Shown: positions 3,801 through 36,799 of the stretch, piece by piece | How the letters are laid out: each line of letters starts with the position of its first letter | Numbering within the stretch: position 1 is the first letter of the stretch | Source of the DNA: Streptomyces sp. NBC_01255 | GTDB lineage: Bacteria > Actinomycetota > Actinomycetes > Streptomycetales > Streptomycetaceae | Length of the DNA stretch: 64,000 nucleotides | Assembly (NCBI RefSeq): GCF_036226445.1 | Contig: NZ_CP108474.1 | Span: 4,402,001 to 4,466,000 of the forward strand | Direction: 5' to 3' | Position numbers and translations under genes: made by a program | Notes under the pieces: generated by a model | Told to the model about the DNA's origin: nothing | Databases searched by the model: none | What the model saw: the letters and a program-made list of their open reading frames with translations, nothing else

Positions 3801-4298
3801 CTACAGCTCCTTGAAGTGGTCGAACGGTTCGCGGCACGCGATGCAGCGGCGGAGGGCCTTGCACGCGGTGGAGGAGAAGCGGCTGAGGAGTTCGGTGTCG
3901 GTGGAGCCGCAGTTCGGGCAGCGGATCGCCAGGGTGAGGAGCACGGGGCCACCGGCCGGGCCCTGGGGGCGGGGCGGGGCGATGCCGAACTCGGCGAGCT
4001 TGCGCCGCCCTTCCTCGCTGATGTCGTCGGTGGACCAGGCGGGCGCGAGGACCGTGACGACGGAGACGTCGGGCACGCCGTGCTCGTGGAGGGCGCGCTC
4101 GATGTCGGAGGACATCGCCTCTATCGCGGGACAGCCCGTGTACGTCGGGGTGAGGGAGACCTCGACGCTGCCCGGGCCGGTGACGTGGACGCCCCGCATG
4201 ACGCCGAGTTCCTCCAGGGTGAGGACGGGCATCTCGGGGTCGAGAACGGCGCCGGCGATCCGGCTGAGCTCCTCCTCCAGGGCCGTCATGGTCACCAT
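3801..4298 (-). CDS. paaD: Phenylacetyl-CoA epoxidase accessory protein PaaD
   Basis: A MIP18/DUF59-type protein of 165 aa (162 if the ATG at 4289 is used). The N-terminal half has the family motif DPEMPVLTLEELGVMRG and TPTYTGCPAIEAM. The C-terminal half has four Cys in two CxxC pairs (CPNC and CIAC), with another Cys between them, expected to bind zinc or an Fe-S cluster. PaaD is needed for PaaABCE activity, probably in cofactor maturation (family knowledge). The start overlaps the paaC stop by 7 nt. Confidence 0.93.
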   Translation of the reverse strand: MVTMTALEEELSRIAGAVLDPEMPVLTLEELGVMRGVHVTGPGSVEVSLTPTYTGCPAIEAMSSDIERALHEHGVPDVSVVTVLAPAWSTDDISEEGRRKLAEFGIAPPRPQGPAGGPVLLTLAIRCPNCGSTDTELLSRFSSTACKALRRCIACREPFDHFKEL

Positions 4299-5029
4299 GT
4301 CGCCCCCGGGTGGCTGCGGTGCAGGTGCTGCATCTCGGCGAGCATCCGTCCGAAGGACTCGGTGTGGAGGCCCTGGCGGCCGGCGCCCGCGGCCCAGGCT
4401 CCGGTGCGGGGGCCGGCGGGCACGGTGAGCGTGGCCTTGTCGAGGACGGCCGTGACGGAGTCCAGCCAGGCGCTCTCCATGGCCGTGCGGTCCAGGTCGA
4501 GGCCGTCGACGGGCTGGAACAGCTCGCCGGTGTACCGCCAGAGGGCGTCGCAGGCCCGCTGCATCCGGTCGTGGCTCTCGGGGGTGCCGTCGCCGAGGCG
4601 CAGGGTCCAGTGCTCGGCGTGGTCCTGGTGGTAGGCGACCTCCTTGACGGCCTTGGCCGCCAGGCCGGCGAAGGGGCCGTCGCCGGCCGCCAGCTGTCCG
4701 TACAGGAGGCGCTGGTAGGTGGAGAAGTACAGCTGCCGGGCGATGGTGTGGGCGAAGTCGCCGTTCGGCTGTTCGACCAGCTGGGCGTTCCGGAAGGAGC
4801 GCTCCTCGCGGAGGTAGGCCAGTTCGTCCTCGTCGCCGGCGAGGGAGAGCAGGACGCGGGCCTGGCCGAGGAGGTCGAGCGCGATGTTCGCGAGGGCGAC
4901 CTCTTCTTCCAGGACGGGGGCGGCGCCGGCCCACTCCCCCAGGCGGTGGGAGAGGACGAGGGCGTCGTCGCCGAGGGCGAGGGCGGCGGTGGTGATCGCG
5001 GCGGTCTCGCGGGTGTCGGGGGTGCTCAC
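4292..5029 (-). CDS. paaC: Phenylacetyl-CoA epoxidase structural subunit PaaC
   Basis: A ferritin-like four-helix protein of 245 aa that forms the PaaAC heterodimer and lacks a full di-iron site. Recognisable segments are LGDDALVLSHRLGEWAG, EVALANIALDLLGQAR and YFSTYQRLLYGQL, and the KEVAYHQDHAEHW helix. The GTG start shares GTGA with the paaB stop. That coupling rules out the much longer upstream extension of the reading frame, which is only paaB and paaA in another frame. Confidence 0.95.
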   Translation of the reverse strand: MSTPDTRETAAITTAALALGDDALVLSHRLGEWAGAAPVLEEEVALANIALDLLGQARVLLSLAGDEDELAYLREERSFRNAQLVEQPNGDFAHTIARQLYFSTYQRLLYGQLAAGDGPFAGLAAKAVKEVAYHQDHAEHWTLRLGDGTPESHDRMQRACDALWRYTGELFQPVDGLDLDRTAMESAWLDSVTAVLDKATLTVPAGPRTGAWAAGAGRQGLHTESFGRMLAEMQHLHRSHPGATW

Positions 5030-5313
5030 AGGTGCTTCACCCCCTCCGGGATCTCGTAGAACGTCGGGTGGCGGTAGGGCTTGTCCGCGGCCGGTTCGAA
5101 GAAGGGGTCCTTCTCGTCGGGCGAGGAGGCGGTGATCGTCGCGGAGGGCACGACCCAGATCGAGACGCCTTCGCTCCTGCGGGTGTACAGGTCGCGGGCG
5201 TTGCGCAGGGCCATCTCCGCGTCGGGCGCGTGGAGACTGCCCGCGTGGGTGTGGGACAGTCCGCGGCGGGAGCGCACGAACACCTCCCACAGCGGCCAAC
5301 CGTCGGTGGTCAT
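5026..5313 (-). CDS. paaB: Phenylacetyl-CoA epoxidase subunit PaaB
   Basis: A 95-aa small subunit that bridges the PaaAC heterodimers in the 1,2-phenylacetyl-CoA epoxidase. It shows the PaaB features [36 protein letters not shown] and [10 protein letters not shown]. The ATG overlaps the paaA stop in an ATGA and the stop overlaps the paaC start in a GTGA, so the three subunits should be made in step. Confidence 0.95.
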
Positions 5314-6326
5314 CCCTGTGCCTCCCCGTGCTTTCCGGTGTGCTTCTCCGCGTAGACCGCGGCCGCTTCTCTGACCCAGGCGCCGTCCTCGTGGGCCTGG
5401 CGCCGCTTGCTCAGCCGCTGGTCGTTGCAGGGGCCGTTCCCCTTGAGGACGTCCCAGAACTCGGTCCAGTCGATGGGGCCGAAGTCGTAGTGCCCGCGCT
5501 CCTCGTTCCACCGGAGGTCGGGGTCGGGGAGGGTGAGGCCGAGTGCCTCGGCCTGCGGGACGGCGATGTCGACGAAGCGCTGGCGCAGTTCGTCGTTGGT
5601 GTGGCGCTTGATCTTCCAGGCCATCGCCTGGGCGGTGTGGGTCGACTCGTCGTCCGGCGGGCCGAACATCATCAGCGAGGGCCACCACCAGCGGTCCACC
5701 GCGTCCTGCGCCATGGCGTGCTGGGCCTCGGTGCCGTTCGACAGGGCGAGAAGGGCCTCGTACCCCTGGCGCTGGTGGAACGACTCCTCCTTGCAGACCC
5801 GGACCATCGCGCGGGCGTACGGGCCGTAGGAGCAGCGGCACAGGGGGACCTGGTTGGTGATTGCGGCCCCGTCCACGAGCCAGCCGATCGCGCCGACGTC
5901 GGCCCAGGTCAGCGTCGGGTAGTTGAAGATCGAGGAGTACTTCTGGCGGCCGGAGTGGAGCTTGTCGAGCAGCTCGTCGCGGCTGGTGCCGAGGGTCTCC
6001 GCGGCGCTGTACAGGTACAGGCCGTGGCCGGCCTCGTCCTGGACCTTGGCCATGAGGATCGCCTTGCGGCGCAGCGAGGGCGCGCGGGTGATCCAGTTCG
6101 CCTCGGGCTGCATGCCGATGATCTCTGAGTGGGCGTGCTGCGCGATCTGCCGGACGAGCGAGGCGCGGTAGGCCTCGGGCATCCAGTCGCGCGGCTCGAT
6201 CCGCTCGTCGGCGGCCACTGCGGCGTCGAAAACGGCTTCGTAGGCGGCCTGTGTCGCCGCTACGGCCGCGTCCGACACGCCGGGCGCGCCCGTGGTTCCT
6301 GTCGTCCCTGCCGTCACTGCGGTCAT
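5310..6326 (-). CDS. paaA: Phenylacetyl-CoA epoxidase catalytic subunit PaaA
   Basis: The 338-aa ferritin-like di-iron subunit that epoxidises the ring of phenylacetyl-CoA. Both metal-binding helix signatures are visible: [15 protein letters not shown] (ExxH) and [14 protein letters not shown] (ExxH). It is first gene of a five-gene operon. Downstream it is coupled to paaB. Fifteen to 31 nt upstream of the ATG lies the palindrome shared with paaN and the bkd2-like operon, so repression by the TetR regulator encoded at 12611 is likely. Confidence 0.96.
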
Positions 6327-6340
6327 CGGACCCCCTACCG

Positions 6341-6357
6341 ACCGATCGTTCGGTTCA
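6341..6357. promoter_or_regulatory. PaaR-type operator, copy 1 (paaA)
   Basis: Core ACCGATCGTTCGGT at 6341-6354, in the form ACCGNNCGNNCGGT. Read on the minus strand and extended by 3 nt, the 17-mer ACCGAACGATCGGTCGG is identical to the copy at paaN. It also matches the core of the TetR-family PaaR motif reported for Corynebacterium (recalled). It sits between the paaA promoter region and its ATG. Confidence 0.8.
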
Positions 6358-6398
6358 ATGACTTCAATGGTGAGTCGGGGGCCCGTATGGTGTCAACC

Positions 6399-6410
6399 CT
6401 GTGGATAACC
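6399..6410 (-). promoter_or_regulatory. TTATCCACAG element upstream of paaA
   Basis: The plus strand reads CTGTGGATAACC; in the paaA direction it is GGTTATCCACAG and contains the 9-mer TTATCCACA, the E. coli DnaA-box consensus. It lies 44 nt upstream of the PaaR-type operator. Related elements occupy the same relative position at paaN and at the bkd2-like operon. Confidence 0.6.
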
Positions 6411-6438
6411 GAGGTGGGCCGATCGGGATCGGGGCGGG

Positions 6439-7245
6439 ATGGACGCGGACGTCGAAAGGGACATCGACGCGGACGTCGAAAGGGACATCGACGCGGACGT
6501 CGAAACGGACGCTGACGCGGTGACGAACGGCCCGTCCGCGGCGACGCCGGCCGGCAGCGGGATCATGGCCCTGTCGCTGCCCTACCAGGTCGTCGCCGCC
6601 GTGGCGCTCGCCGTGGCCGGCGTCTTCGTCTGCGTCCACCTGGCGATGGTGTTCCTGCACGTCGCACCGTCCAACACGCTCACCAAGCGGCACGGCCAGG
6701 CCGTCGACGACTGGATCTACCCCGAGTTCGAACAGAACTGGAAGCTCTTCGCGCCCAACCCGCTCCAGCAGAACGTCTCCGTCGAGGTCCGCGCCGAGGT
6801 CGTCACCACCGGTGACGGCCGCCGCACCACCGGCTGGATCGACCTCACCGCCCAGGACGCCGCGGCGATCCGCCACAACCCGCTGCCCAGCCACACACAG
6901 CAGAACGAGCTCCGCAGGGCCGTGGACTTCTACCTGAACTCGCACGCCGACGACGGCAGCCCCAACGGGACGCGCGGTCACCTCTCGGAGGAGTACATGC
7001 GCCGGATCGCGATGCTCCGGCTCGACGGCCTCGCCTCCCTCGACGGGGCCGACGTGCGACGGGTCCAGCTGCGCGCGGTCACCCGGCCCGTACCCGCGCC
7101 CCGGTGGAGCACCGAGAAGAACGAGGTCACCCCCTCCTACCGCGACTTCCCCTGGTGGAAGGTGACCGACGCCGACCGGCCGGACGGCGCGTCCCGGAGC
7201 CGTACGGACGCCGTCGGCCCGAGCCGTGGGGAGGCGGGTCGATGA
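6439..7245 (+). CDS. DUF5819 family membrane protein
   Basis: A 268-aa protein with one N-terminal membrane helix (about residues 50-72, VVAAVALAVAGVFVCVHLAMVFLHV) followed by a family-typical domain containing FEQNWKLFAPNPLQQNVSVEVRAE. The first 25 residues are an acidic repeat (DADVERDI) from a 24-bp DNA repeat. Function is unknown. Its stop overlaps the start of the HTTM gene by ATGA. Pairing with an HTTM protein, a family containing vitamin-K-dependent gamma-carboxylases, suggests the two proteins work together at the membrane. Confidence 0.85.
   Translation: MDADVERDIDADVERDIDADVETDADAVTNGPSAATPAGSGIMALSLPYQVVAAVALAVAGVFVCVHLAMVFLHVAPSNTLTKRHGQAVDDWIYPEFEQNWKLFAPNPLQQNVSVEVRAEVVTTGDGRRTTGWIDLTAQDAAAIRHNPLPSHTQQNELRRAVDFYLNSHADDGSPNGTRGHLSEEYMRRIAMLRLDGLASLDGADVRRVQLRAVTRPVPAPRWSTEKNEVTPSYRDFPWWKVTDADRPDGASRSRTDAVGPSRGEAGR
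6442..6513 (+). repeat. 24-bp tandem repeat encoding DADVERDI
   Basis: Three consecutive 24-nt units begin at 6442, 6466 and 6490. The first two are identical and the third is degenerate at its end. They lie inside the N-terminus of the DUF5819 gene and keep the frame. Confidence 0.85.
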
Positions 7246-8471
7246 GCGGTCCCACCAGCACGCGCGCGCGGACGCGTGAGCCCTTCGACCGGCGGATCGC
7301 CCGCGCCGTCCAGGCCGTCACCGGCCGCGCGCTCGGCCCGCACCAGACCGCGATCGTGCGGATCGGCTTCTCGCTGACCTGGCTGGTCTTCCTGCTGCGC
7401 GAGCTGCCGCACCGGCACGAGATGTACGGGCCCGACGGCCCGTGGTCCTGGGAGCTGGCGAGCCGGCTGATCGCCGACAACCGGGCCTTCACCGTGCTGA
7501 TGTGGTCGGACGGACGGGTCTGGTTCGAGCTCGTCTACGGGCTCGCGGTGCTCTCCGCCGCCCTGCTCCTCGTCGGCTGGCACACCCGGGCCGTGTCGGT
7601 GGTCTTCATGGTCGGGGTCCTCTCGCTGCAGAACCGGTCCGTCTTCCTCGGCGACGGCGGCGACAACGTCCTCCACCTCGCCGCGATCTACCTCGTCCTG
7701 ACCCGCTGCGGCCAGGTGTGGTCCCTCGACGCCAGGAGGGCCGCCCGCAGGGCCGTCCGAGGGGCTCGTGAGGACGTCGTCGGCCCGCTGCTGTGGATCG
7801 TGCTCGGCGGCTTCCTGCTCGCCACCACCTGGTTCAGCGACGTCACCGGAGAGTGGTGGCTGCCGGTGCTGCTGTGGGTGCTGTGGCTCGGGCACGGGCT
7901 GTGGTGGCTGGTCTGCCGGCTCGCGCCCGGGGAGCCGCGCACCCTGCTCGACGTCCTCGCCAACCTCACGCACAACGCCGCCCTCGTCGTGATCATGGCC
8001 GAGGTCTGTCTGATCTACGCCACGGCCGGCTGGTACAAGATCCAGGGCTCGCGCTGGCAGGACGGCACCGCCCTCTACTACCCGCTCCACCTGGACTACT
8101 TCTCGCCCTGGCCCGCGCTCTCCGAGCTGCTCGCCTCCAGCGGGATCATGGTGATGCTGCTGACCTACGGCACGGTGATCGTGCAGGTCGCCTTCCCGTT
8201 CACGCTCTTCCACCGCAAGGTGAAGAACGTCCTGCTGGTCGCGATGATGCTGGAGCACGCCGGGATCGCCCTGCTCCTCGGGCTGCCGGTCTTCTCCCTC
8301 GCGATGATCTCCGCCGACGCGGTGTTCCTGCCGACGGCCTTCCTGGTGGCCCTCGGCGCACGGGCCGCGCGGGGCAGGGACCGGCTGCTGGGACGGCGGC
8401 GGTCCGCCGGAGCGCTGCCCGAGCAGCGCCGTACGGGTGAGGAGCACGGCCCCCGTACCCTCGTCGGGTGA
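7242..8471 (+). CDS. HTTM domain multi-spanning membrane protein
   Basis: A 409-aa protein with about 8 hydrophobic helices, of the horizontally transferred transmembrane (HTTM) domain class related to vitamin-K-dependent gamma-carboxylase. It contains the conserved motifs RIGFSLTWLVFLLRELPHR and ATAGWYKIQGSRWQDGTALYYPLH, the latter close to the HTTM signature. The carboxylase Lys equivalent cannot be confirmed by eye. The ATG overlaps the DUF5819 stop and its own stop overlaps the GTG of the methyltransferase, so it is in the middle of a tightly coupled three-gene unit. Confidence 0.88.
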   Translation: MSGPTSTRARTREPFDRRIARAVQAVTGRALGPHQTAIVRIGFSLTWLVFLLRELPHRHEMYGPDGPWSWELASRLIADNRAFTVLMWSDGRVWFELVYGLAVLSAALLLVGWHTRAVSVVFMVGVLSLQNRSVFLGDGGDNVLHLAAIYLVLTRCGQVWSLDARRAARRAVRGAREDVVGPLLWIVLGGFLLATTWFSDVTGEWWLPVLLWVLWLGHGLWWLVCRLAPGEPRTLLDVLANLTHNAALVVIMAEVCLIYATAGWYKIQGSRWQDGTALYYPLHLDYFSPWPALSELLASSGIMVMLLTYGTVIVQVAFPFTLFHRKVKNVLLVAMMLEHAGIALLLGLPVFSLAMISADAVFLPTAFLVALGARAARGRDRLLGRRRSAGALPEQRRTGEEHGPRTLVG

Positions 8472-9202
8472 GCACCACCGAAGAGAATCCCCGAGCCGAG
8501 GCGGCTGAGGCAGTCGACGTGGCTGACGCGGTCGACGTGGCCGAGCCGGCTCAGTACGACGAGGGGTTCGGCCCCGAGATCGGCGTCGGGCCGCACCCGG
8601 AGCCGTGGCCGGAGGGCGAGCGGTACGACCCCGAGCTGCTCGCCGGCGGCGACCGGCGCAATGTCGTGGACCACTACCGGTACTGGACGCGGGAGGCGAT
8701 CGTCGCCGACCTCGACACCCACCGTCACGACTTCCACGTGGCCGTGGAGAACTGGGGCCACGACTTCAACATCGGCTCGGTCGTACGGACCGCCAACGCC
8801 TTCCTCGCGAAGGAGGTCCACATCGTGGGCCGACGGCGCTGGAACCGGCGGGGCGCCATGGTCACCGACCGCTACCAGCACGTCCGCCACCACCCGGACA
8901 CCGAGTCGCTGACCGCGTGGGCGGCGGCCGAGGGCCTGCCGATCATCGGGATCGACAACCTCCCGGGCGCGGTGCCGCTGGAGCGGACCGTGCTGCCGCG
9001 CCGCTGTGTGCTGCTCTTCGGACAGGAGGGCCCGGGGCTCACGGACGAGGCTCGCGCCCGCGTGGAGACGGTCTGCTCGATCGCCCAGTTCGGCTCGACC
9101 CGGTCGATCAACGCCGGTGCGGCCGCCGCGATCGCCATGCACGCGTGGGTGCAGCGGTACGCGGAGATCGACAGCCCGCAGGGGGGCGTGGAGGCCCCGT
9201 AG
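8468..9202 (+). CDS. SpoU-family RNA ribose methyltransferase
   Basis: A 244-aa SPOUT-class enzyme that would methylate a ribose 2'-OH in tRNA or rRNA using S-adenosylmethionine. Motif 1 is NWGHDFNIGSVVRTANAF with the conserved Asn and Arg. Motif 2 is VLLFGQEGPGLT and motif 3 is IAQFGSTRSINAGAAAAIAMHAW, where the SAM knot forms. The first 45 residues are an acidic Ala/Val/Glu extension. The GTG start shares GTGA with the HTTM stop. The target RNA position is unknown. Confidence 0.92.
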   Translation: MSTTEENPRAEAAEAVDVADAVDVAEPAQYDEGFGPEIGVGPHPEPWPEGERYDPELLAGGDRRNVVDHYRYWTREAIVADLDTHRHDFHVAVENWGHDFNIGSVVRTANAFLAKEVHIVGRRRWNRRGAMVTDRYQHVRHHPDTESLTAWAAAEGLPIIGIDNLPGAVPLERTVLPRRCVLLFGQEGPGLTDEARARVETVCSIAQFGSTRSINAGAAAAIAMHAWVQRYAEIDSPQGGVEAP

Positions 9203-9213
9203 GGCCCCCACGC
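9186..9213. terminator. Bidirectional hairpin between methyltransferase gene and paaN
   Basis: A 12-nt arm GCGTGGAGGCCC pairs with GGGCCCCCACGC with one mismatch across a 4-nt loop. It overlaps the end of the methyltransferase gene and lies just before the convergent paaN stop at 9221. Confidence 0.6.
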
Positions 9214-9220
9214 GCCTGGG

Positions 9221-10918
9221 TCAGGCCTGGCGGCGGACCTCCACCACCCGGAAGCGGTTCGAGACGAAGGCGCCGTCGCACAGCGCCGCGTTCGCCGCGG
9301 GGTTGCCGCCGGAGCCGTGGAAGTCGGAGAACGCCGCCGTCTGGTTGACGTACACCCCGCCCGTGAGGTTCAGCGAGAGCTGCGCCGACTCCTCCAGGCA
9401 GACCTCCTCGACCGCACGCTCGGTTTCGGCCGAGGTCGTGTACGCGCCGACCGTCATCGCGCCCTTCTCGCGGACCGTGCGCCGCAGCAGCTCCAGGGCG
9501 TCGGCGGTGGAGTCCACCGAGACGGCGAAGGAGACCGGGCCGAAGCACTCGGAGAAGTACGCGGCCTGGGCGTCCGGCTTGGAGCCGTCCAGCTTCACGA
9601 TGACCGGGGTACGGACCACGGCGTCCGGGAAGTCGGGGTTGACGACCTCACGGGACGCGAGCGCCACCTCGCCGAGGCCGGCGGCCGCCTCCAGACGCGC
9701 CTTCACGTCCGGGTTGACCAGCGCGCCGAGCAGACCGTTCGCCCGGGCGTCGTCGCCGAGCAGGCCGCCGACCGCCGCCGCGAGGTCGGCGACGACCTCG
9801 TCGTACGCCTTGGGGCCCTGATCGGTGGTGATGCCGTCGCGGGGGATCAGCAGGTTCTGCGGGGTCGTGCACATCTGGCCGCTGTACAGCGACAGCGAGA
9901 ACGCCAGGTTGGCCAGCATGCCCTTGTAGTCGTCGGTCGAGTCGACCACGACCGTGTTGACCCCGGCCTTCTCCGTGTAGACCTGCGCCTGGCGGGCGTT
10001 GGCCTCCAGCCAGTCGCCGAAGGCGGTCGAGCCGGTGTAGTCGATGATCCGGACCTCGGGCCGCACGGCCAGGGTCTTGGCGATGCCCTCGCCCGGGCGC
10101 TCGACCGCGAGCGCGACGAGGTTCGGGTCGAAGCCGGACTCGGCGAGCACCTCGCGGGCGACGCTGACAGTGAGCGCGAGCGGCAGGACGGCGCGCGGGT
10201 GGGGCTTGACCAGGACCGGGTTGCCGGTCGCCAGCGAGGCGAACAGGCCCGGGTAGCCGTTCCACGTGGGGAAGGTGTTGCAGCCGATCACCAGGGCGAT
10301 GCCGCGGCCGACCGGGGTGAACTCCTTGGACAGCTCCAGCGGGTCGCGCTTGCCCTGGGGCTTGGACCAGCCGGACCGCCCGGCGGGGGTGCGGGTCTGC
10401 TCCTCGTACGCGTACGCCACGGCCTCCAGGCCGCGGTCCTGGGCGTGCGGGCCGCCGGCCTGGAACGCCATCATGAACGCCTGTCCGCTGGTGTGCATGA
10501 CGGCGTGGGCGAACTCGTGGGTGCGGGCCGAGATCCGGGACAGGATCTCCAGGCAGACGAGCGCGCGGGTCTCCGCCCCGGCGTCGCGCCAGGCGGCCGT
10601 GCCCGCGCGCATCGCGGGCAGCAGGACGTCGATGTCGGCGTGCGGGTACTCGATGCCGAGCTCCGGGCCGTACGGCGAGACCTCGCCGCCGGTCCAGCCG
10701 TCCGTGCCGGGCTGGTCGAGCTCGAAGCGGGTGTTCAGCAGGGCCTTGTGGGCGGCGAGGCCGGCCGCCGCGTCGAGCGAGCCGTCCTCCCCGTAGGCCT
10801 TCGGGTGCTCGGGGTACGGCGACCAGTAGGCGCGGGTGCGGATCGTGGCGAGTGCCTGATCGAGCGTGGACCGGTGCTTCTCGGCCAGACGGTCGGTGGT
10901 CGGCAGAGCGGTGGCCAT
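9221..10918 (-). CDS. paaN: Phenylacetate degradation protein PaaN (aldehyde dehydrogenase type)
   Basis: A 565-aa aldehyde dehydrogenase superfamily protein. The nucleotide-binding Rossmann region includes IGCNTFPTWNGYPGLFASLATGNPVLVKPHP. The catalytic Cys is in LYSGQMCTTPQNLL. It would oxidise the open-chain semialdehyde-CoA after ring cleavage. It lacks the C-terminal MaoC hydratase domain found in E. coli PaaZ, so the oxepin-CoA hydrolase must be a separate protein. The ATG at 10918 is the natural start; the longer reading frame upstream is an extension through the promoter. It diverges from the paaH-like gene, sharing the operator at 10974. Confidence 0.92.
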   Translation of the reverse strand: MATALPTTDRLAEKHRSTLDQALATIRTRAYWSPYPEHPKAYGEDGSLDAAAGLAAHKALLNTRFELDQPGTDGWTGGEVSPYGPELGIEYPHADIDVLLPAMRAGTAAWRDAGAETRALVCLEILSRISARTHEFAHAVMHTSGQAFMMAFQAGGPHAQDRGLEAVAYAYEEQTRTPAGRSGWSKPQGKRDPLELSKEFTPVGRGIALVIGCNTFPTWNGYPGLFASLATGNPVLVKPHPRAVLPLALTVSVAREVLAESGFDPNLVALAVERPGEGIAKTLAVRPEVRIIDYTGSTAFGDWLEANARQAQVYTEKAGVNTVVVDSTDDYKGMLANLAFSLSLYSGQMCTTPQNLLIPRDGITTDQGPKAYDEVVADLAAAVGGLLGDDARANGLLGALVNPDVKARLEAAAGLGEVALASREVVNPDFPDAVVRTPVIVKLDGSKPDAQAAYFSECFGPVSFAVSVDSTADALELLRRTVREKGAMTVGAYTTSAETERAVEEVCLEESAQLSLNLTGGVYVNQTAAFSDFHGSGGNPAANAALCDGAFVSNRFRVVEVRRQA

Positions 10919-10973
10919 GGATGGACCAACTCCTCGTCGAGCTGGGCAGGGAGACGCGTACGGAGTTAGAGTA

Positions 10974-10990
10974 ACCGAACGATCGGTCGG
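10974..10990. promoter_or_regulatory. PaaR-type operator, copy 2 (paaN/paaH divergent promoter)
   Basis: The 17-mer ACCGAACGATCGGTCGG, an imperfect palindrome (ACCG-AA-CG-AT-CGGT core at 10974-10987), identical to the paaA copy on the other strand. It lies 56 nt upstream of the paaN ATG and 52 nt upstream of the paaH-like ATG, so one bound dimer could control both genes. Confidence 0.82.
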
Positions 10991-11010
10991 GACAAGGGGG
11001 TCCGCCGATC

Positions 11011-11022
11011 CTGTGGAAAACC
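11011..11022 (-). promoter_or_regulatory. TTTTCCACAG element upstream of paaN
   Basis: The plus strand reads CTGTGGAAAACC; in the paaN direction it is GGTTTTCCACAG. It is 23 nt upstream of the PaaR-type operator and directly before the ribosome binding site of the divergent paaH-like gene. Confidence 0.55.
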
Positions 11023-11042
11023 CATCGGGGAGGATCACTCCT

Positions 11043-12614
11043 ATGAGCGCCAACGTGACCGTCAGGGGGAGCGACGACGTGACCGCCAGTGAGCCGACCG
11101 CCCTCGCACAGGACCGCACCGTCGCCGTCGTCGGCACCGGCACCATGGGCCAGGGGATCGCCCAGGTCGCGCTGGTCGCCGGCCATCCCGTACGGCTCTA
11201 CGACAGCGCCCCCGGCCGGGCCGGGGAGGCCGTGGCCGCCCTCGCCGCCCGCCTGGACCGGCTCGTGGAGAAGGGCCGCCTGGACGCCGCCGCGCGCGAG
11301 GCGGCCGCCGGCCGGCTGCACGCGGCGGAGGACCTCGCCGAGCTCGCGGACGCGGCGCTCGTCGTCGAGGCGATCGTCGAGAACCTCGCCGTCAAACAGC
11401 AGCTCTTCGCCGACCTGGAGAAGGTCGTCGGCGACGACACCGTCCTCGCCACGAACACCTCCTCCCTCTCCGTCACCGCGATCGCGGGCGGGCTGCGCCT
11501 GCCCGGCCGGTTCGTCGGACTCCACTTCTTCAACCCGGCGCCGCTGCTCCCGCTCGTCGAGGTCGTCAGCGGCTTCGCCACCGACGCGGACGTCGCCACG
11601 CGCGCGTACGAGACGATGAAGGGCTGGGGCAAGACGCCGGTGCGCTGCGCGGACACCCCCGGCTTCATCGTGAACCGGGTCGCGCGCCCCTTCTACGCGG
11701 AGGCGCTGCGGGTCTACGAGGAGGGCGCGGCCGACCCCGCCACCATCGACGCCGCCCTGCGCGAGTGCGGCGGCTTCCGCATGGGGCCCTTCGAGCTCAC
11801 GGACCTCATCGGGCAGGACGTGAACGAGGCCGTCACCCGCTCGGTCTGGGAGTCCTTCTACCAGGACCCGAAGTTCACGCCGTCGCTCGCGCAGCGGCGG
11901 CTCGTGGAGTCGGGGAGGCTCGGCCGCAAGTCGGGGCAGGGCTGGTTCTCGTACGAGGAGGGCGCCGAGCGGCCCGAGCCGCACAACGCGCCGCCGGCCG
12001 AGGCGCCCGCGCGGATCGTCGTCCGTGGCGACCTGGGGCCCGCCGAGCCGCTGGCGGGCCTCTTCGAGGAGGCGGGGATCAAGGTACGGCGCAAGGGCGG
12101 TGACGGGTTCATCGTGCTGCCCGGCGGCGGCCAGCTCGTCCTCGCGGACGGCGAGACCGCCTTCGAGTACTTCAGCGACGAGATCATCTACTTCGATCTC
12201 GCGCTCGACTACGCGCGAGCGACCCGGATCGTGCTCTCCACCGGGGAGCGGACCTCGCCCGAGGTCCTCGCGGAGGCCGTGGGCCTCTTCCAGGCGCTCG
12301 GCAAGCAGGTGTCCGTGATCGGTGACGTGCCCGGCATGATCGTCGCCCGTACGGTCGCGATGCTGGCCGATCTGGCGGCCGACGCGGTCGACCGGGGCGT
12401 CGCCACCGCCGAGGACGTGGACACGGCGATGAGGCTCGGGGTCAACTACCCCGCCGGCCCCTTGGAGTGGGCCGAGAAGGTGGGGCACATGCGTGTGTGC
12501 GACCTGCTGTCGGAGATGAACAAGCGCTACCCGACGGGGCGGTACGCGCCGTGCCTGGCCTCCGCCCGCAAGGGAAGCGCCGATGCGGCCCGGATAGGAA
12601 AGGAAGGCCGATGA
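11043..12614 (+). CDS. paaH: 3-hydroxyacyl-CoA dehydrogenase, PaaH type
   Basis: A 523-aa NAD-dependent dehydrogenase expected to oxidise 3-hydroxyadipyl-CoA late in phenylacetate degradation. The NAD fold starts VAVVGTGTMGQGIAQVALVAGHPV at about residue 29. The catalytic His/Glu region is GLHFFNPAPLLPLVEVV, and a first C-domain includes DTPGFIVNRVARPFYAEALRV. From about residue 320 a second, more divergent C-domain copy (PGMIVARTVAMLADLAAD, GVNYPAGPLEWAEKVG) gives the long PaaH architecture. The ATG has a GGGAGG site. Its stop overlaps the TetR gene in ATGA. Confidence 0.9.
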   Translation: MSANVTVRGSDDVTASEPTALAQDRTVAVVGTGTMGQGIAQVALVAGHPVRLYDSAPGRAGEAVAALAARLDRLVEKGRLDAAAREAAAGRLHAAEDLAELADAALVVEAIVENLAVKQQLFADLEKVVGDDTVLATNTSSLSVTAIAGGLRLPGRFVGLHFFNPAPLLPLVEVVSGFATDADVATRAYETMKGWGKTPVRCADTPGFIVNRVARPFYAEALRVYEEGAADPATIDAALRECGGFRMGPFELTDLIGQDVNEAVTRSVWESFYQDPKFTPSLAQRRLVESGRLGRKSGQGWFSYEEGAERPEPHNAPPAEAPARIVVRGDLGPAEPLAGLFEEAGIKVRRKGGDGFIVLPGGGQLVLADGETAFEYFSDEIIYFDLALDYARATRIVLSTGERTSPEVLAEAVGLFQALGKQVSVIGDVPGMIVARTVAMLADLAADAVDRGVATAEDVDTAMRLGVNYPAGPLEWAEKVGHMRVCDLLSEMNKRYPTGRYAPCLASARKGSADAARIGKEGR

Positions 12615-13204
12615 CGACGGCGAAGCGCGACACGTACACCCCGGAGACGCTGCTCTCGGTCGCCGTACGGGTCTTCAACGAGCGCGGCTACGACGGCACC
12701 TCCATGGAGCACCTGTCCAAGGCGGCGGGGATCTCCAAGTCGTCGATCTACCACCACGTGTCCGGCAAGGAGGAGCTGCTGCGGCGCGCGGTCAGCCGGG
12801 CGCTCGACGGGCTCTTCGCGGTGCTCGACGAGCCGGGAGCGGTACGCGGCCGGGCCGTCGAGCGGGTCGAGTACGTCACGCGCCGGACCGTGGAGGTGCT
12901 GATCGCGGAGCTGCCGTACGTGACGCTGCTGCTGCGGGTGCGGGGCAACACCGCGACCGAGCGGTGGGCGATGGAGCGGCGGCGCGAGTTCGACCACCGG
13001 GTGGCCGAGCTGCTGAAGGCCGCGGCGGCGGAGGGCGACCTGCGGGCGGACGTGGACATACGGCTGGCGACCCGGCTGCTCTTCGGCATGATCAACTCGC
13101 TGGTGGAGTGGTACCGGCCGCATCCCGACGCGGTGGGCGAGCGGGAGCAGCTCGCCGAGACCGTCGCGCATCTGGCGTTCGACGGGCTGCGGACGGCCCG
13201 CTGA
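12611..13204 (+). CDS. paaR: TetR-family regulator, probable PaaR
   Basis: A 197-aa TetR protein. The N-terminal helix-turn-helix is at residues 12-58 (LLSVAVRVFNERGYDGTSMEHLSKAAGISKSSIYHHVSGKEELL). The rest is the helical ligand domain, ending in AETVAHLAFDGLRTAR. Coupling to paaH and the palindromes at paaA, paaN/paaH and the bkd2-like promoter make it the likely repressor of phenylacetate catabolism. In other bacteria the inducer is phenylacetyl-CoA (family knowledge). Because its gene is downstream of one of the operators, it should regulate itself. Confidence 0.85.
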   Translation: MTTAKRDTYTPETLLSVAVRVFNERGYDGTSMEHLSKAAGISKSSIYHHVSGKEELLRRAVSRALDGLFAVLDEPGAVRGRAVERVEYVTRRTVEVLIAELPYVTLLLRVRGNTATERWAMERRREFDHRVAELLKAAAAEGDLRADVDIRLATRLLFGMINSLVEWYRPHPDAVGEREQLAETVAHLAFDGLRTAR

Positions 13205-13223
13205 GCGAGCGTGGACGGCTTGT

Positions 13224-13254
13224 GGACGGCCCCTACGGGGGCCGTCCTGCTTTT
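13224..13254 (+). terminator. Intrinsic terminator after the TetR gene
   Basis: A 10-bp stem (GGACGGCCCC / GGGGCCGTCC) with a TACG tetraloop, followed by TGCTTTTC. It lies between the TetR stop and the convergent Lrp-type gene. Confidence 0.8.
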
Positions 13255-13261
13255 CGGGCGG

Positions 13262-13912
13262 TCAGAGGCGGTGGTCGGTGTTGAGGTCCGTCTCCTCGAA
13301 GACCAGCAGGGTGCGGGTCGACAGCACTTCGGGGATCGACTGGAGCCGGGTGAGTACCAGCTCGCGCAGTGTCCGGTTGTCCGGGGTGTGCACGAGCAGC
13401 AGCACATCGAAATCACCGCTGACCAGCGCGATGTGCGTGGCGCCCGGGAGCGCCCTGAGCTGCTCGCGGACCGTCCGCCAGGAGTTCTGGACGATCTTGA
13501 GCGTGATGTAGGCGGAGGCGCCGTGTCCCGCCCGTTCGTGGTTGACGCGGGCGCTGAAGCCGCGGATCACGCCGTCGTCGATGAGCCGGTTGATCCGTGC
13601 GTAGGCGTTGGCCCGGGACACGTGCACCCGCTCGGCCACGGAGCGTACCGAGGCGCGGCCGTCCGTTTGCAGCAACCTCAGGATGTCGCGGTCGATCGCG
13701 TCCAGTGGGCGTGGCGGAGGGGCGCCCGTCGGCGTGCCGATCGGTGCGCTGAGGGCCTCTTCGGGCACCTCGCCCTCGGTCCCGCCGTGGGGCCTGCCGA
13801 GTGCCTCGTTCAATGCCCCGCCCAGTGCCTCGCCCGGTGTGCTGCCGGGTGCTCCGCCCGTGGTGCCGGCCGGAGCCCCGCTCCGGTCGACGGCCATTTG
13901 TTCTTCCGCCAT
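13262..13912 (-). CDS. bkdR: Lrp/AsnC-family regulator, BkdR type
   Basis: A 216-aa feast/famine regulator. The DNA-binding domain is at about residues 70-125 (LDAIDRDILRLLQTDGRASVRSVAERVHVSRANAYARINRLIDDGVI) and is followed by the RAM ligand-binding domain (ASAYITLKIV, GDFDVLLLVHTPDN). A 65-residue Gly/Pro/Ala/Glu-rich N-terminal extension is unusual for Lrp proteins. It diverges from a branched-chain-type 2-oxoacid dehydrogenase operon. An Lrp-like BkdR next to bkd genes has been described in S. coelicolor (recalled), so control of the neighbouring operon is likely. Confidence 0.85.
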   Translation of the reverse strand: MAEEQMAVDRSGAPAGTTGGAPGSTPGEALGGALNEALGRPHGGTEGEVPEEALSAPIGTPTGAPPPRPLDAIDRDILRLLQTDGRASVRSVAERVHVSRANAYARINRLIDDGVIRGFSARVNHERAGHGASAYITLKIVQNSWRTVREQLRALPGATHIALVSGDFDVLLLVHTPDNRTLRELVLTRLQSIPEVLSTRTLLVFEETDLNTDHRL

Positions 13913-13956
13913 GTCCCCCCGCCTCTCTCCGGTGGACGACCTGCTCCTATCCCAGG

Positions 13957-13980
13957 CTGTGGAGAACCGTTTGTCCACAG
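13957..13980. promoter_or_regulatory. 24-bp palindrome with two opposed TTNTCCACA elements
   Basis: CTGTGGAGAACC (13957-13968) is followed directly by GTTTGTCCACAG (13969-13980); the 7-nt ends CTGTGGA/TCCACAG are perfectly inverted. The right copy contains TTGTCCACA, the Streptomyces DnaA-box form. It lies 33 nt upstream of the operator copy at 14014 and 44 nt upstream of the Lrp start codon. Confidence 0.6.
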
Positions 13981-14013
13981 GCTGGAGGTGCCTGTAGCCA
14001 AAATGCCTCCACG

Positions 14014-14027
14014 ACCGAACAATCGGT
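14014..14027. promoter_or_regulatory. PaaR-type operator, copy 3 (bkd2-like operon)
   Basis: ACCGAACAATCGGT differs from the paaN copy at one base, the central CG being CA; 3 nt further, AGG replaces CGG. It lies 71 nt before the E1alpha start and 101 nt from the Lrp start. This is the only operator of the three not next to a recognised paa gene. Confidence 0.65.
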
Positions 14028-14098: not shown

Positions 14099-15250
14099 TT
14101 GCAACAGCGCAGTTCGACAGTCCAAGAGCCGCCCGGTGCCGTTCCCGCCTACCGGCCCACCCCGCCGCCGGCGTGGCAGCCGCGTACCGACCCTGGCCCG
14201 CTGCTGCCCGACGCCGAGCCGCTGCGCGTGCTCGGCACGGACGCCGTGGCCGATGCCGACCCCGCGCTGCTGCTCCGGCTGTACGCGGAGCTGATCCGCG
14301 GCCGTCGGTACAACACGCAGGCCACCGCTCTCACCAAGCAGGGCCGGCTCGCCGTGTACCCGTCCACCACCGGCCAGGAGGCGTGCGAGGTCGCCGCCGC
14401 CCTGGCCCTGGAGGAGCGGGACTGGCTCTTCCCCTCGTACCGCGACACCCTCGCGGCGGTCGCCCGCGGCCTCGACCCCGTGCAGGCGCTGACGCTGCTG
14501 CGCGGCGACTGGCACACCGGGTACGACCCGCGCGAGCACCGCATCGCGCCGCTCTGCACCCCGCTGGCCACCCAGCTCCCGCACGCGGTGGGCCTCGCCC
14601 ACGCCGCCCGCCTCAAGGGGGACGACGTGGTCGCCCTCGCCATGGTCGGCGACGGCGGCACCAGCGAGGGCGACTTCCACGAGGCGCTGAACTTCGCGGC
14701 CGTCTGGCAGGCCCCCGTGGTCTTCTTCGTGCAGAACAACGGCTTCGCGATCTCCGTGCCGCTGGCCAAGCAGACCGCCGCCCCCTCCCTGGCCCACAAG
14801 GCCGTCGGATACGGGATGCCGGGCCGGCTGGTCGACGGCAACGACGCGGTGGCCGTGCACCAGGTGCTGACCGAGGCCGTGGCACGCGCGCGGCGCGGCG
14901 GCGGCCCCACCCTCGTCGAGGCGATCACCTACCGGATCGACGCCCACACCAACGCCGACGACGCCACCCGCTACCGCGCCGCCGGCGAGGTCGAGACCTG
15001 GCGGGCACACGACCCGATCCTGATCCTCGAACGGGAACTGACCGAGCGTGGCCTGCTCGACGAGGACGGCAGGCGCGCGGCGGCCGAGGCCGCCGAGACG
15101 ATGGCGGCGGAGCTGCGCGAACGGATGAACGCCGACCCGGTGCTCGACCCGATGGAGCTCTTCTCCCACGTGTACGCCGAGCAGACGACGCAGCTGCGCG
15201 AACAGGCGGCGCAGCTGCGCGCCGAGCTCGAAGCCGAGGGTGAGGCGTGA
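14099..15250 (+). CDS. bkdA2: 2-oxoacid dehydrogenase E1 alpha subunit (bkd2-like)
   Basis: A 383-aa thiamine-diphosphate E1 alpha subunit. The ThDP motif begins GDGGTSEGDFHEALNFAAVWQAP and ends in the NN of FVQNNGFAIS. The substrate-channel region is YRDTLAAVARG and the phosphorylation-loop segment is YRIDAHTNADDATRYR. The start is a TTG at 14099, 8 nt after GAGGAGG; the GTG at 14090 lies inside that Shine-Dalgarno. First gene of an E1alpha-E1beta-E2 operon without E3. The nearby paa operator suggests an aryl substrate rather than, or besides, branched-chain 2-oxoacids (inference). Confidence 0.9.
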   Translation: MQQRSSTVQEPPGAVPAYRPTPPPAWQPRTDPGPLLPDAEPLRVLGTDAVADADPALLLRLYAELIRGRRYNTQATALTKQGRLAVYPSTTGQEACEVAAALALEERDWLFPSYRDTLAAVARGLDPVQALTLLRGDWHTGYDPREHRIAPLCTPLATQLPHAVGLAHAARLKGDDVVALAMVGDGGTSEGDFHEALNFAAVWQAPVVFFVQNNGFAISVPLAKQTAAPSLAHKAVGYGMPGRLVDGNDAVAVHQVLTEAVARARRGGGPTLVEAITYRIDAHTNADDATRYRAAGEVETWRAHDPILILERELTERGLLDEDGRRAAAEAAETMAAELRERMNADPVLDPMELFSHVYAEQTTQLREQAAQLRAELEAEGEA

Positions 15251-16305
15251 TGACGACCGCGACGACCGGCCCCACGGCGGCCAAGGCGGCCAAGGCCGCC
15301 GGTGCCGCCGGGAAGCCCAAGCCCGCGACGATGGCGCAGGCGCTCCAGCGCGCCATGCGCGACGCGATGGCCGAGGACCCGACCGTCCATGTGATGGGCG
15401 AGGACGTCGGCACGCTCGGCGGTGTCTTCCGGGTCACCGACGGGCTCGCCAAGGAGTTCGGCGAGGACCGCTGCACCGACACCCCGCTGGCCGAGGCGGG
15501 CATCCTCGGCGCGGCCGTCGGCATGGCCATGTACGGCCTGCGGCCGGTCGTCGAGATGCAGTTCGACGCCTTCGCCTACCCGGCGTTCGAGCAGCTGATC
15601 TCGCACGTGGCGAAGATGCGGAACCGCACGCGCGGCGCCATGCCGATGCCGATCGTCATCCGTGTCCCGTACGGCGGCGGGATCGGCGGGGTCGAGCACC
15701 ACAGTGACTCCTCCGAGGCCTACTACATGGCCACCCCCGGCCTGCACGTCGTCACCCCGGCGACCGTCGAGGACGCCTACGGGCTGCTGCGCGCGGCCAT
15801 CGCCTCCGACGACCCGGTGGTCTTCCTCGAGCCCAAGCGGCTCTACTGGTCGAAGTCCGACTGGTCGCCCGAGGCGCCCGCGCCCGTCGAGCCGATCGGC
15901 AAGGCGGTCGTACGGCGGCGGGGCACCGGCGCCACCCTGATCACCTACGGCCCGTCGGTTCCGGTCTGCCTGGAGGCGGCGGAGGCCGCCCAGGCCGAGG
16001 GCTGGGACCTGGAGGTCGTCGACCTGCGCTCGCTCGTGCCGTTCGACGACGAGACCGTCTGCGCCTCGGTACGGCGCACGGGCCGGGCGGTCGTGGTCCA
16101 CGAGTCGACCGGTTTCGCCGGCCCCGGCGCGGAGATCGCCGCGCGCGTCATGGAGCGCTGCTTCCACCACCTGGAGGCGCCGGTGCTGCGGGTCGCGGGC
16201 TTCGACATCCCGTACCCGCCGCCGATGCTGGAGCGGCACCATCTGCCCGGCGTGGACCGTGTCCTGGACGCGGTGGCACGGCTTCAGTGGGAGGCGCAGA
16301 GCTGA
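15250..16305 (+). CDS. bkdB2: 2-oxoacid dehydrogenase E1 beta subunit (bkd2-like)
   Basis: A 351-352 aa transketolase-type beta subunit; GTG at 15247 and ATG at 15250 both overlap the E1alpha stop. It has EDVGTLGGVFRVTDGLAKEFGEDRCTDTPLAEAGILG, the pyrimidine-binding region with the catalytic Glu, and RVPYGGGIGGVEHHSDSSEAY. The C-terminal transketolase domain holds ITYGPSVPVCLEAAE. It starts with a 25-residue Ala/Lys-rich leader missing in the second E1beta of this window. Its stop overlaps the E2 start as TGATG. Confidence 0.93.
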   Translation: MTTATTGPTAAKAAKAAGAAGKPKPATMAQALQRAMRDAMAEDPTVHVMGEDVGTLGGVFRVTDGLAKEFGEDRCTDTPLAEAGILGAAVGMAMYGLRPVVEMQFDAFAYPAFEQLISHVAKMRNRTRGAMPMPIVIRVPYGGGIGGVEHHSDSSEAYYMATPGLHVVTPATVEDAYGLLRAAIASDDPVVFLEPKRLYWSKSDWSPEAPAPVEPIGKAVVRRRGTGATLITYGPSVPVCLEAAEAAQAEGWDLEVVDLRSLVPFDDETVCASVRRTGRAVVVHESTGFAGPGAEIAARVMERCFHHLEAPVLRVAGFDIPYPPPMLERHHLPGVDRVLDAVARLQWEAQS

Positions 16306-17687
16306 TGGCCCAGGTGCTCGAATTCAAGCTGCCCGACCTCGGCGAGGGTCTCACCGAGGCCGAGATCGTCCGCTGGCTCGTCGCCGTCGGCGACGTCGTC
16401 GCCATCGACCAGCCGGTCGTCGAGGTCGAGACGGCCAAGGCCATGGTCGAGGTGCCCTGCCCGTACGGCGGCGTCGTCACCGCCCGGTACGGCGAGGAGG
16501 GCACCGAACTGCCCGTCGGCGCGCCGCTCCTGACGGTCGCGGTGGGCGGTACGGGTGCGCCGGAGGAGCTCGCGGAGGCTGCTCCGGAAGCGGCCCTCAC
16601 GGCGGGTGGGTCCGCCGCCGAGTCCGCCGTCTCCTCGGAGCACTCGGGCAACGTGCTCGTGGGCTACGGCACGGCGGGGCCCGCCGCCCGGCGCCGACGG
16701 GTGCAGCACGCGAGCCCGACGGCCGCCCAGGCTCCGGCCGCCGTCTCCGCACCCGCACCCGCGGCCGTCGTGGCAGCGGTTCCGGCGTCCGCCGAGCCCG
16801 CGGGCCCGGTGCCGGTCATCTCGCCGCTCGTACGGAAGCTGGCCCGGGACCGGGGACTCGACCTGCGGGAGGTACGCGGATCGGGGCCCGAGGGTCTGAT
16901 CCTGCGGGCGGACGTGGAGCTGGCGCTCGCGGCCCTGGACCGGCCGGTCGCCGCCCCGACGCCCGCCGCGAGCCCCGCAGTGACTCCTGTCGCGGCGGTC
17001 GGCGAGCGGATTCCGCTGCGCGGGCTCCGCGGCGTGGTGGCGGACAAGCTCTCGCGCAGCCGTACGGAGATTCCGGACGCGACCTGCTGGGTCGACGCCG
17101 ACGCGACCGAGCTGATGGCGGCCCGGCGCGCGATGAACTCGGCGGGCGGGCCGAAGATCTCGCTGCTCGCGCTCCTCGCCCGGATCTGCGCCCACGCCCT
17201 GGCCCGGTTCCCCGAGCTCAACTCCACGGTGGACACGGCCGCCCGGGAGATCGTCCGGCTGCCGGCCGTGCACCTCGGCTTCGCCGCCCAGACCCCGCGC
17301 GGTCTGGTCGTCCCGGTGGTCAGGGACGCGGGGACGCGGACGGCCGAGTCGCTCACGGCGGAGTTCGCCCGGCTCACGGAGTCCGCCCGGCAGGGCACGC
17401 TCACGCCGGCCGATCTGACGGGCGGCACGTTCACCCTGAACAACTACGGGGTGTTCGGGGTCGACGGCTCCACGCCGATCATCAACCACCCCGAGGCCGC
17501 GATGCTCGGTGTCGGCCGGATCATCCCCAAGCCCTGGGTCCACCAGGGCGAACTGGCCGTCCGTCAGGTGGTGCAGCTCTCGCTCACCTTCGACCACCGC
17601 GTCTGCGACGGCGGCACGGCGGGCGGCTTCCTGCGGTACGTGGCGGACTGCGTCGAACAGCCCGCGGTCCTGCTCCGTACGGTCTGA
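16305..17687 (+). CDS. bkdC2: 2-oxoacid dehydrogenase E2 acyltransferase (bkd2-like)
   Basis: A 460-aa dihydrolipoamide acyltransferase. One lipoyl domain lies at residues 1-80, with the lipoyl Lys in VETAKAMVE. An Ala/Pro linker follows, then the peripheral-subunit-binding domain (SPLVRKLARDRGLDLREVRGSGPEG) at about 165-205. The catalytic domain carries the HxxxDG motif in TFDHRVCDGG. It transfers the acyl group from lipoate to CoA. The ATG at 16305 overlaps the E1beta stop. A hairpin terminator follows. The E3 component must be supplied from elsewhere in the genome. Confidence 0.93.
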   Translation: MAQVLEFKLPDLGEGLTEAEIVRWLVAVGDVVAIDQPVVEVETAKAMVEVPCPYGGVVTARYGEEGTELPVGAPLLTVAVGGTGAPEELAEAAPEAALTAGGSAAESAVSSEHSGNVLVGYGTAGPAARRRRVQHASPTAAQAPAAVSAPAPAAVVAAVPASAEPAGPVPVISPLVRKLARDRGLDLREVRGSGPEGLILRADVELALAALDRPVAAPTPAASPAVTPVAAVGERIPLRGLRGVVADKLSRSRTEIPDATCWVDADATELMAARRAMNSAGGPKISLLALLARICAHALARFPELNSTVDTAAREIVRLPAVHLGFAAQTPRGLVVPVVRDAGTRTAESLTAEFARLTESARQGTLTPADLTGGTFTLNNYGVFGVDGSTPIINHPEAAMLGVGRIIPKPWVHQGELAVRQVVQLSLTFDHRVCDGGTAGGFLRYVADCVEQPAVLLRTV

Positions 17688-35806: not shown

Positions 35807-35808
35807 TC

Positions 35809-36789: not shown

Positions 36790-36799
36790 GGAGAGCACC

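Follow-up and report, generated by a model that had tools for sequence, protein, structure and literature searches.

In the 64,000-nucleotide stretch of Streptomyces sp. NBC_01255 analyzed here (contig NZ_CP108474.1, positions 4,402,001 to 4,466,000; hereafter the window), the phenylacetate degradation (paa) genes and a TetR-family regulator gene adjoin an operon for the E1alpha, E1beta and E2 subunits of a 2-oxoacid dehydrogenase complex. This operon corresponds to the published bkdA2B2C2 and adjoins bkdR, and the locus raises the question of whether it is controlled together with the paa genes. A sequence-only reading of the window had proposed that the TetR regulon extends to it, and this proposal is supported by the rarity of the operator, its conservation in the genus and family, its loss or decay together with the TetR gene, a further site at paaK, co-expression in S. 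rimosus, and the presence of divergent E1-E2 genes in paa clusters. The operators, their conservation, the co-loss and the linkage were read from sequence in this work, and the S. rimosus co-expression was measured by others. Taken together, these lines of evidence make it very probable that the TetR protein, a predicted PaaR, controls the E1alpha-E1beta-E2 operon. The operators, the regulator and the operon are as follows.

6341 to 6354, minus strand: operator 1, ACCGAACGATCGGT on the minus strand, in front of paaABCDE and within the gap that separates them from a divergent gene pair
10974 to 10987, plus strand: operator 2, ACCGAACGATCGGT, with paaN (minus strand) on one side and paaH-tetR (plus strand) on the other
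12611 to 13204, plus strand: putative PaaR (TetR family), ortholog of SCO3833, its start overlapping the paaH stop
14014 to 14027, plus strand: operator 3, ACCGAACAATCGGT, before the E1alpha-E1beta-E2 operon
14099 to 15250, plus strand: E1alpha (bkdA2 type), TTG start; TIGR03181 at 429 bits, cut-off 411
15250 to 16305, plus strand: E1beta; best models below cut-off
16305 to 17687, plus strand: E2 (lipoyl acyltransferase), named by position and sequence, no family search

The three palindromes that the sequence-only reading had described at 6341, 10974 and 14014 are all present, and its one-base variant before E1alpha is ACCGAACAATCGGT at 14014-14027. It had also reported identical 17-mers at sites 1 and 2; the identity stands, but the common stretch, AACCGAACGATCGGTCGG, is 18 bases long. 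Operator 1 lies 14 bases from the paaA start (6326), and the TTG start of E1alpha (14099) is 71 bases beyond operator 3. Operator 3 differs from operators 1 and 2 in the spacer alone, the half-sites being equal, as can be told because the half-sites ACCGA and TCGGT match those of the Burkholderia cenocepacia PaaR operator. The tight pattern, ACCGAACNATCGGT, has only three exact matches in the whole 8.57-Mb genome, all within 7.7 kb of the window, where base composition predicts 0.10 per genome and 0.00009 per 7.7 kb by chance. Allowing up to one mismatch gives seven genome matches (the three exact ones included) versus none for the reversed control. A looser pattern, ACCGNNCGNNCGGT, has a further exact match at 9411, inside paaN, and with at most one mismatch it gives 23 matches in the window, whereas 100 shuffles average 12.4 and never exceed 22. 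The loose scan is thus enriched, yet too permissive to single out the three sites, and was rejected as proof. The other one-mismatch sites of the same genome (L004, L005, L006) have no clear target; one of them, ACCGAACTGTCGGT at G000:C1:4733629-4733642 (L006), also occurs in G008 and G024 and may be coding sequence.

Whether related genomes keep the third site, a check named beforehand by the sequence-only reading, was examined, and the outcome was in its favor. In 100 of 101 genus genomes, E1alpha is preceded by an exact ACCGAACAATCGGT, and where the site is present none of its 14 positions varies, not even the "variant" base; across the genus, the sequence is close to random at positions 31-58, counted from the operator start. 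A TetR ortholog is likewise found in 100 of the 101. An E1alpha match exists in every genus genome (the source genome included), that of the single exception, G035, being only a paralog of 61-63%, and in G035 the TetR gene and the E1alpha ortholog are missing together. At the family level, the exact operator is present in 61 of 66 promoters (60 of the 81 listed plus six further loci; G191 belongs to the same genus). It was not found in the promoters of G109, G129 and G135, genomes without a TetR match at 1e-45, in that of G119 (TetR 64%, E1alpha 66%), or in G168, which has the TetR gene, an E1alpha paralog of 59% only and a contamination of 10%; the family genomes without the site are related, so they represent few independent events. 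A collection of named organisms, which may overlap the other genome sets, has the site in 65 of 80 loci, and among its members outside the family the site is absent in 13 of 13 loci. An exact operator precedes paaA in 71 of 72 readable loci (the miss being G043; 29 of the 101 were dropped, with paaA outside the stretch, below 78% identity, in the other orientation, or with too short a flank), and the paaN/paaH gap holds one in 95 of 98 loci, with one or two mismatches in G020, G045 and G100. Some genus genomes (L079, L080, L157 and similar stretches) lack paaH in the interval from paaN to tetR and still keep operators 2 and 3.

Streptomyces avicenniae (L405) provides a natural loss of the TetR gene. 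This species retains paaA, paaN, the Lrp gene and E1alpha (75%), and the TetR gene is found neither at the locus nor in the genome at an E-value of 1e-20 (104 of 104 candidates scored). Its E1alpha promoter is alignable, and operator 3 there reads CCCCAACAATCGGG, with three changes that all fall on half-site bases; nothing closer than five mismatches was found near paaA, or closer than four near paaN. The paaH gene is also gone from this locus, and operator 2 may therefore have left with that segment. Neither S. avicenniae nor S. harbinensis has a PaaK at an E-value of 1e-60 whose operator could show decay. The S. avicenniae case is the clearest sign that it is the TetR protein that keeps operator 3.

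A fourth site, ACCGAATGATCGGT, with one mismatch, lies at G000:C1:8331049-8331062 (L007:1501-1514) before an unlinked paaK, 3.9 Mb from the window, and the gene behind it scores 719 bits with the PaaK model, above the cut-off of 646. There are 97 PaaK matches in 93 of the 101 genus genomes; among the 30 of these loci that make up the operator count, a site with zero to two mismatches precedes paaK in all 30, and its center is TG in 28. In seven genomes (G007, G026, G029, G035, G084, G086 and G097) PaaA is found at the cut-offs and PaaK is not, and all seven carry this E1alpha or, in G035, its relative; with a PaaK cut-off as strict as 1e-150, they may still have a distant ligase. The spacers are promoter-specific, with ACGA at paaA and paaN, ATGA at paaK (25 of 30 loci) and ACAA at E1alpha. 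A CA/TG center would thus be common to the two entry enzymes and CG to the two degradation units, a hint drawn from only four promoters. Second paa/paaK clusters with a TetR of their own (62%) were observed at L207, L208, L209 and L210, with ACCGAATGTTCGGT or ACCGAACATTCGGT-like sites near paaK or paaN.

Published expression data for S. rimosus fit a link from PaaR to the dehydrogenase, although the available parts of that paper do not state one (PMC10612213). Its Table 2 gives log2 values for strain HP126 of 5.0 for E1alpha, 4.7 for E2 and 4.6 for E1beta, together with 4.1 for PaaE, 3.5 for PaaD, 3.3 for PaaC and 3.1 for PaaK; the branched-chain aminotransferase stands at 1.0 and valine dehydrogenase at -1.7. 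In a second column, for the deletion derivative, the values are -2.9 for E1alpha, -2.7 for E2, -2.7 for E1beta, -1.4 for PaaE, -1.0 for PaaD, 0 for PaaC and -1.3 for PaaK. The 15 window genes from paaE to E2 would correspond one to one to tags SRIMR7_19935 to 20005, counted by fives, which puts the TetR gene, by expectation, near SRIMR7_19985. The authors of that study read the pattern as branched-chain plus phenylacetate breakdown. The link from PaaR to the dehydrogenase is not stated in the literature searched; Zhao 2015, Sprusansky 2005 and Chen 2012 might mention one.

The other features around the operators are as follows.

2712 to 3800, minus strand: paaE; PaaE model at 411 bits, slightly below the cut-off of 421
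3801 to 4298, minus strand: paaD, named by position and likeness, no family search
4292 to about 5029, minus strand: paaC, named by position and likeness, no family search
5026 to 5313, minus strand: paaB, named by position and likeness, no family search
5310 to 6326, minus strand: paaA; TIGR02156 at 524 bits, cut-off 280
9221 to 10918, minus strand: paaN; TIGR02288 at 894 bits, cut-off 579
11043 to 12614, plus strand: paaH; 3-hydroxyacyl-CoA dehydrogenase subfamily above cut-off, PaaH equivalog at 634 bits, slightly below its cut-off of 669
13262 to 13912, minus strand: Lrp-family regulator, corresponding to bkdR (SCO3832); Lrp models match below cut-off
13957 to 14000, plus strand: promoter region of inferred roles, with a dyad CTGTGGA-N10-TCCACAG (13957-13980), a -35-like TTGTCC (13971-13976) and a -10-like TAGCCA (13995-14000)

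The TetR protein matches PDB entry 2iai (S. coelicolor SCO3833) at 306 bits, with the next of many matching TetR-family chains at 69, and no NCBIfam model matches it at or above cut-off. Its gene is linked to the paa genes, lying directly 3' of paaH and near paaN and paaABCDE, and most of the 101 genus stretches show it flanked by paaN and lrp. Transcription diverges at two gaps, between paaN and paaH-tetR around operator 2 and between the Lrp gene and E1alpha-E1beta-E2 around operator 3. Operator 3 begins 13 bases beyond the -10-like TAGCCA, and this position just downstream of the likely promoter suits a repressor. The dyad in the same gap (13957-13980), about 98% conserved in its right arm and less so in its left, is a candidate Lrp/BkdR site. 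The bkdR gene has reportedly been tied to antibiotic production and development (Sprusansky 2005, title as cited). Across operator 1 from paaA lie two divergent genes (window 6439-8471) that may share this operator; the pair adjoins paaA/paaN in most genus stretches.

The question that follows is what the complex does. Its E1alpha passes the pyruvate dehydrogenase model TIGR03181, a name that we judged uninformative on substrate. The genome has three other E1alpha genes, 42, 41 and 37% identical to the one at 14099, and the window contains a second operon of the same kind.

34613 to 38242, plus strand: second E1alpha-E1beta-E2 operon (bkdA1B1C1 type), its E1alpha 41% identical to that at 14099

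In S. avermitilis, a bkdF mutant is said to be without branched-chain activity though bkdABC remains. Divergent E1-E2 genes, relatives at 61-63%, occur in or near paa clusters at five loci. Two of these, in G040 (L203) and S. guryensis (L415), represent one cluster type, in which an aminotransferase gene and a PaaN-like gene are followed by an Lrp gene on the other strand and then, on a single strand, by E1alpha-E1beta-E2-paaN-(others)-paaH-paaA-paaB-paaC. These clusters (L415:6580-21069, L203:5473-19890) are without the PaaR motif and may run from phenylalanine to ring opening. G035 (L213) has E1alpha-E1beta-E2, a gap of about 0.9 kb, and paaA-paaB-paaC on a single strand, and in Sphaerisporangium (L410) and Nonomuraea (L412) paaABC and paaE lie about 5-9 kb off, with paaD as well in L412, where an aminotransferase gene stands directly 3' of E2. 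A phenylalanine-aminotransferase-like gene thus adjoins three of the five divergent loci. These aminotransferases score 481 and 471 bits against NF002878 (cut-off 374), and the nearest solved relative of the L412 protein is 4r2n, "Putative phenylalanine aminotransferase" (371 bits; next 147). In the E1alpha itself, V86 aligns with F66 of the Thermus protein, which we take to be a substrate-contact residue; Val occupies this position in all 101 genus sequences and in 20 of 21 further loci (one without a motif match), and Leu in two bkdA1-type paralogs. The smaller residue might make room for a phenyl group, which is weak evidence. From the gene context and the regulon, we think it probable that phenylpyruvate is a main substrate of the complex, which would make phenylacetyl-CoA from it.

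The alternative that survives best accepts control by PaaR but takes the complex as a true branched-chain or broad-range 2-oxoacid dehydrogenase, whose acyl-CoA supply would follow phenylacetyl-CoA levels; we regard this as rather unlikely, if still a serious contender. At the position of Thermus Ser144, whose role we presume, the Thr found here is nearer to branched-chain enzymes than is the Ile that the Geobacillus pyruvate enzyme has. In the literature the operon carries the branched-chain name bkdA2B2C2 and lies beside an Lrp-type neighbor named bkdR (PMC12323332, PMC13033682), and SCO3832 adjoins bkdA2 in S. coelicolor (PMC12323332). In addition, the "BCDH II" of S. albus is valine-induced (PMC8176718); if it is the same as this operon, this would speak for a branched-chain role. 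Set against these points are the divergent copies in paa clusters, three of them by a phenylalanine-aminotransferase-like gene, the lack of a joint rise of the branched-chain aminotransferase (1.0) and valine dehydrogenase (-1.7) in S. rimosus, and the separate bkdA1-type operon in the window.

The published name, the Lrp neighbor and the valine induction of BCDH II weigh against placing the operon in phenylacetate metabolism under PaaR, and so do several other observations. The promoter elements upstream of operator 3 are likewise highly conserved, so conservation alone cannot name the binder. The clean loss and decay in S. avicenniae is one event in one assembly, and paaH was lost there too. 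Genome G008, without PaaA or PaaK at the cut-offs, nevertheless retains the E1alpha operon along with the TetR gene and operators 2 and 3. Among the operator-less relatives (L405 set apart), 11 of 14 show no paa gene in the available stretch, some of these stretches being short. Finally, HP126 carries 184 nucleotide changes as well as large rearrangements, and expression is altered for 2497 of 8534 genes, with fatty acid genes up too (PMC10612213), so that the co-rise may have more than one explanation.

Recognition of operator 3 by a different TetR-like or an unrelated regulator, instead of the protein encoded at 12611, is very unlikely. This explanation draws on the one base by which the site differs from operators 1 and 2, fixed in all genus genomes with the site, and on the second TetR protein (62-64% identical) carried by some genomes. 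However, the difference lies in the spacer and not in the half-sites, and the spacer of the paaK operator differs too; the second TetR occurs in 4 of 101 genomes versus the site in 100; and S. avicenniae and G035 have lost the site along with the TetR gene. A chance match, as might be suspected from the many chance matches of the loose pattern in the window, can be dismissed, refuted by the 0.10 exact tight matches expected per genome and by the constancy of all 14 bases across 100 of 101 genus genomes beside near-random positions 31-58.

In the mechanism that we infer for binding, ligand and substrate, the TetR protein at 12611 would be PaaR, acting as a dimer on ACCGA-N4-TCGGT operators and repressing four units: paaABCDE, paaN with paaH-paaR, the unlinked paaK, and E1alpha-E1beta-E2. 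The releasing ligand is most likely phenylacetyl-CoA, as with other PaaR proteins. Together with a shared E3, the E1-E2 complex would most likely convert phenylpyruvate (transaminated phenylalanine) to phenylacetyl-CoA, and the regulon would hold two entry enzymes, with free phenylacetate entering through PaaK and phenylalanine through the dehydrogenase. BkdR, the adjacent Lrp protein, is probably a second input on the E1alpha operon. This reading as a whole, PaaR control of the operon plus the complex as the entry from phenylpyruvate to phenylacetyl-CoA, we judge quite likely to be right. We are evenly divided over a more specific version, in which bkdA2B2C2 is a dedicated phenylpyruvate dehydrogenase and the main route from phenylalanine to phenylacetyl-CoA, jointly held by PaaR and BkdR, and the CA/TG-centered operators are a separately tuned class for entry enzymes. 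The operon has an ortholog in 100 of 101 genus genomes, and omics papers, in the passages available, read it as branched-chain. If PaaR control and the phenylpyruvate role are correct, phenylalanine rather than branched-chain breakdown may explain those omics signals, and the operon would offer a new control point for phenylacetyl-CoA supply to products such as phenylglycine antibiotics.

Several known systems come close to this one. The PaaR of S. pristinaespiralis (SSDG_03033; Zhao et al. 2015 via PMC10933834, PMC7089894) is likewise a TetR repressor of paa genes in the same genus, and its putative site, AACGA-N4-TCGGT, is one base off the half-site found here (PMC10933834); the targets named for it in the available passages are paa genes only, with no 2-oxoacid dehydrogenase (PMC10933834, PMC7089894). 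The validated operator of B. cenocepacia PaaR, ACCGACCGGTCGGTT, has the half-sites ACCGA and TCGGT four bases apart, as here, and phenylacetyl-CoA releases the protein; its targets, as far as the passages report them, are the paaA, paaH and paaZ promoters and no dehydrogenase complex (PMC9493321). Thermus thermophilus has two TetR repressors, PaaR, which responds to phenylacetyl-CoA, and PfmR, which is described with fatty acid genes; the PfmR consensus, TACCGACCGNTNGGTN, resembles the operator here, whereas the Thermus PaaR motif is CNAACGNNCGTTNG (PMC6651687, PMC7022988, PMC9493321). In S. coelicolor, bkdA2B2C2 (SCO3831-3829) and bkdR (SCO3832) form the same operon type with the same Lrp neighbor, and the TetR ortholog SCO3833 has the next tag; that operon is read as branched-chain, and the passages available contain neither a phenylacetate link nor PaaR control (PMC12323332, PMC13033682). 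PglB/PglC of S. pristinaespiralis is an E1alpha/E1beta-type pair stated to convert phenylpyruvate to phenylacetyl-CoA; this pair belongs to an antibiotic cluster and is likened here by description (PMC7089894). Relative to these systems, the locus described here adds an enzyme of a different class to a known regulon and is not a new kind of system.

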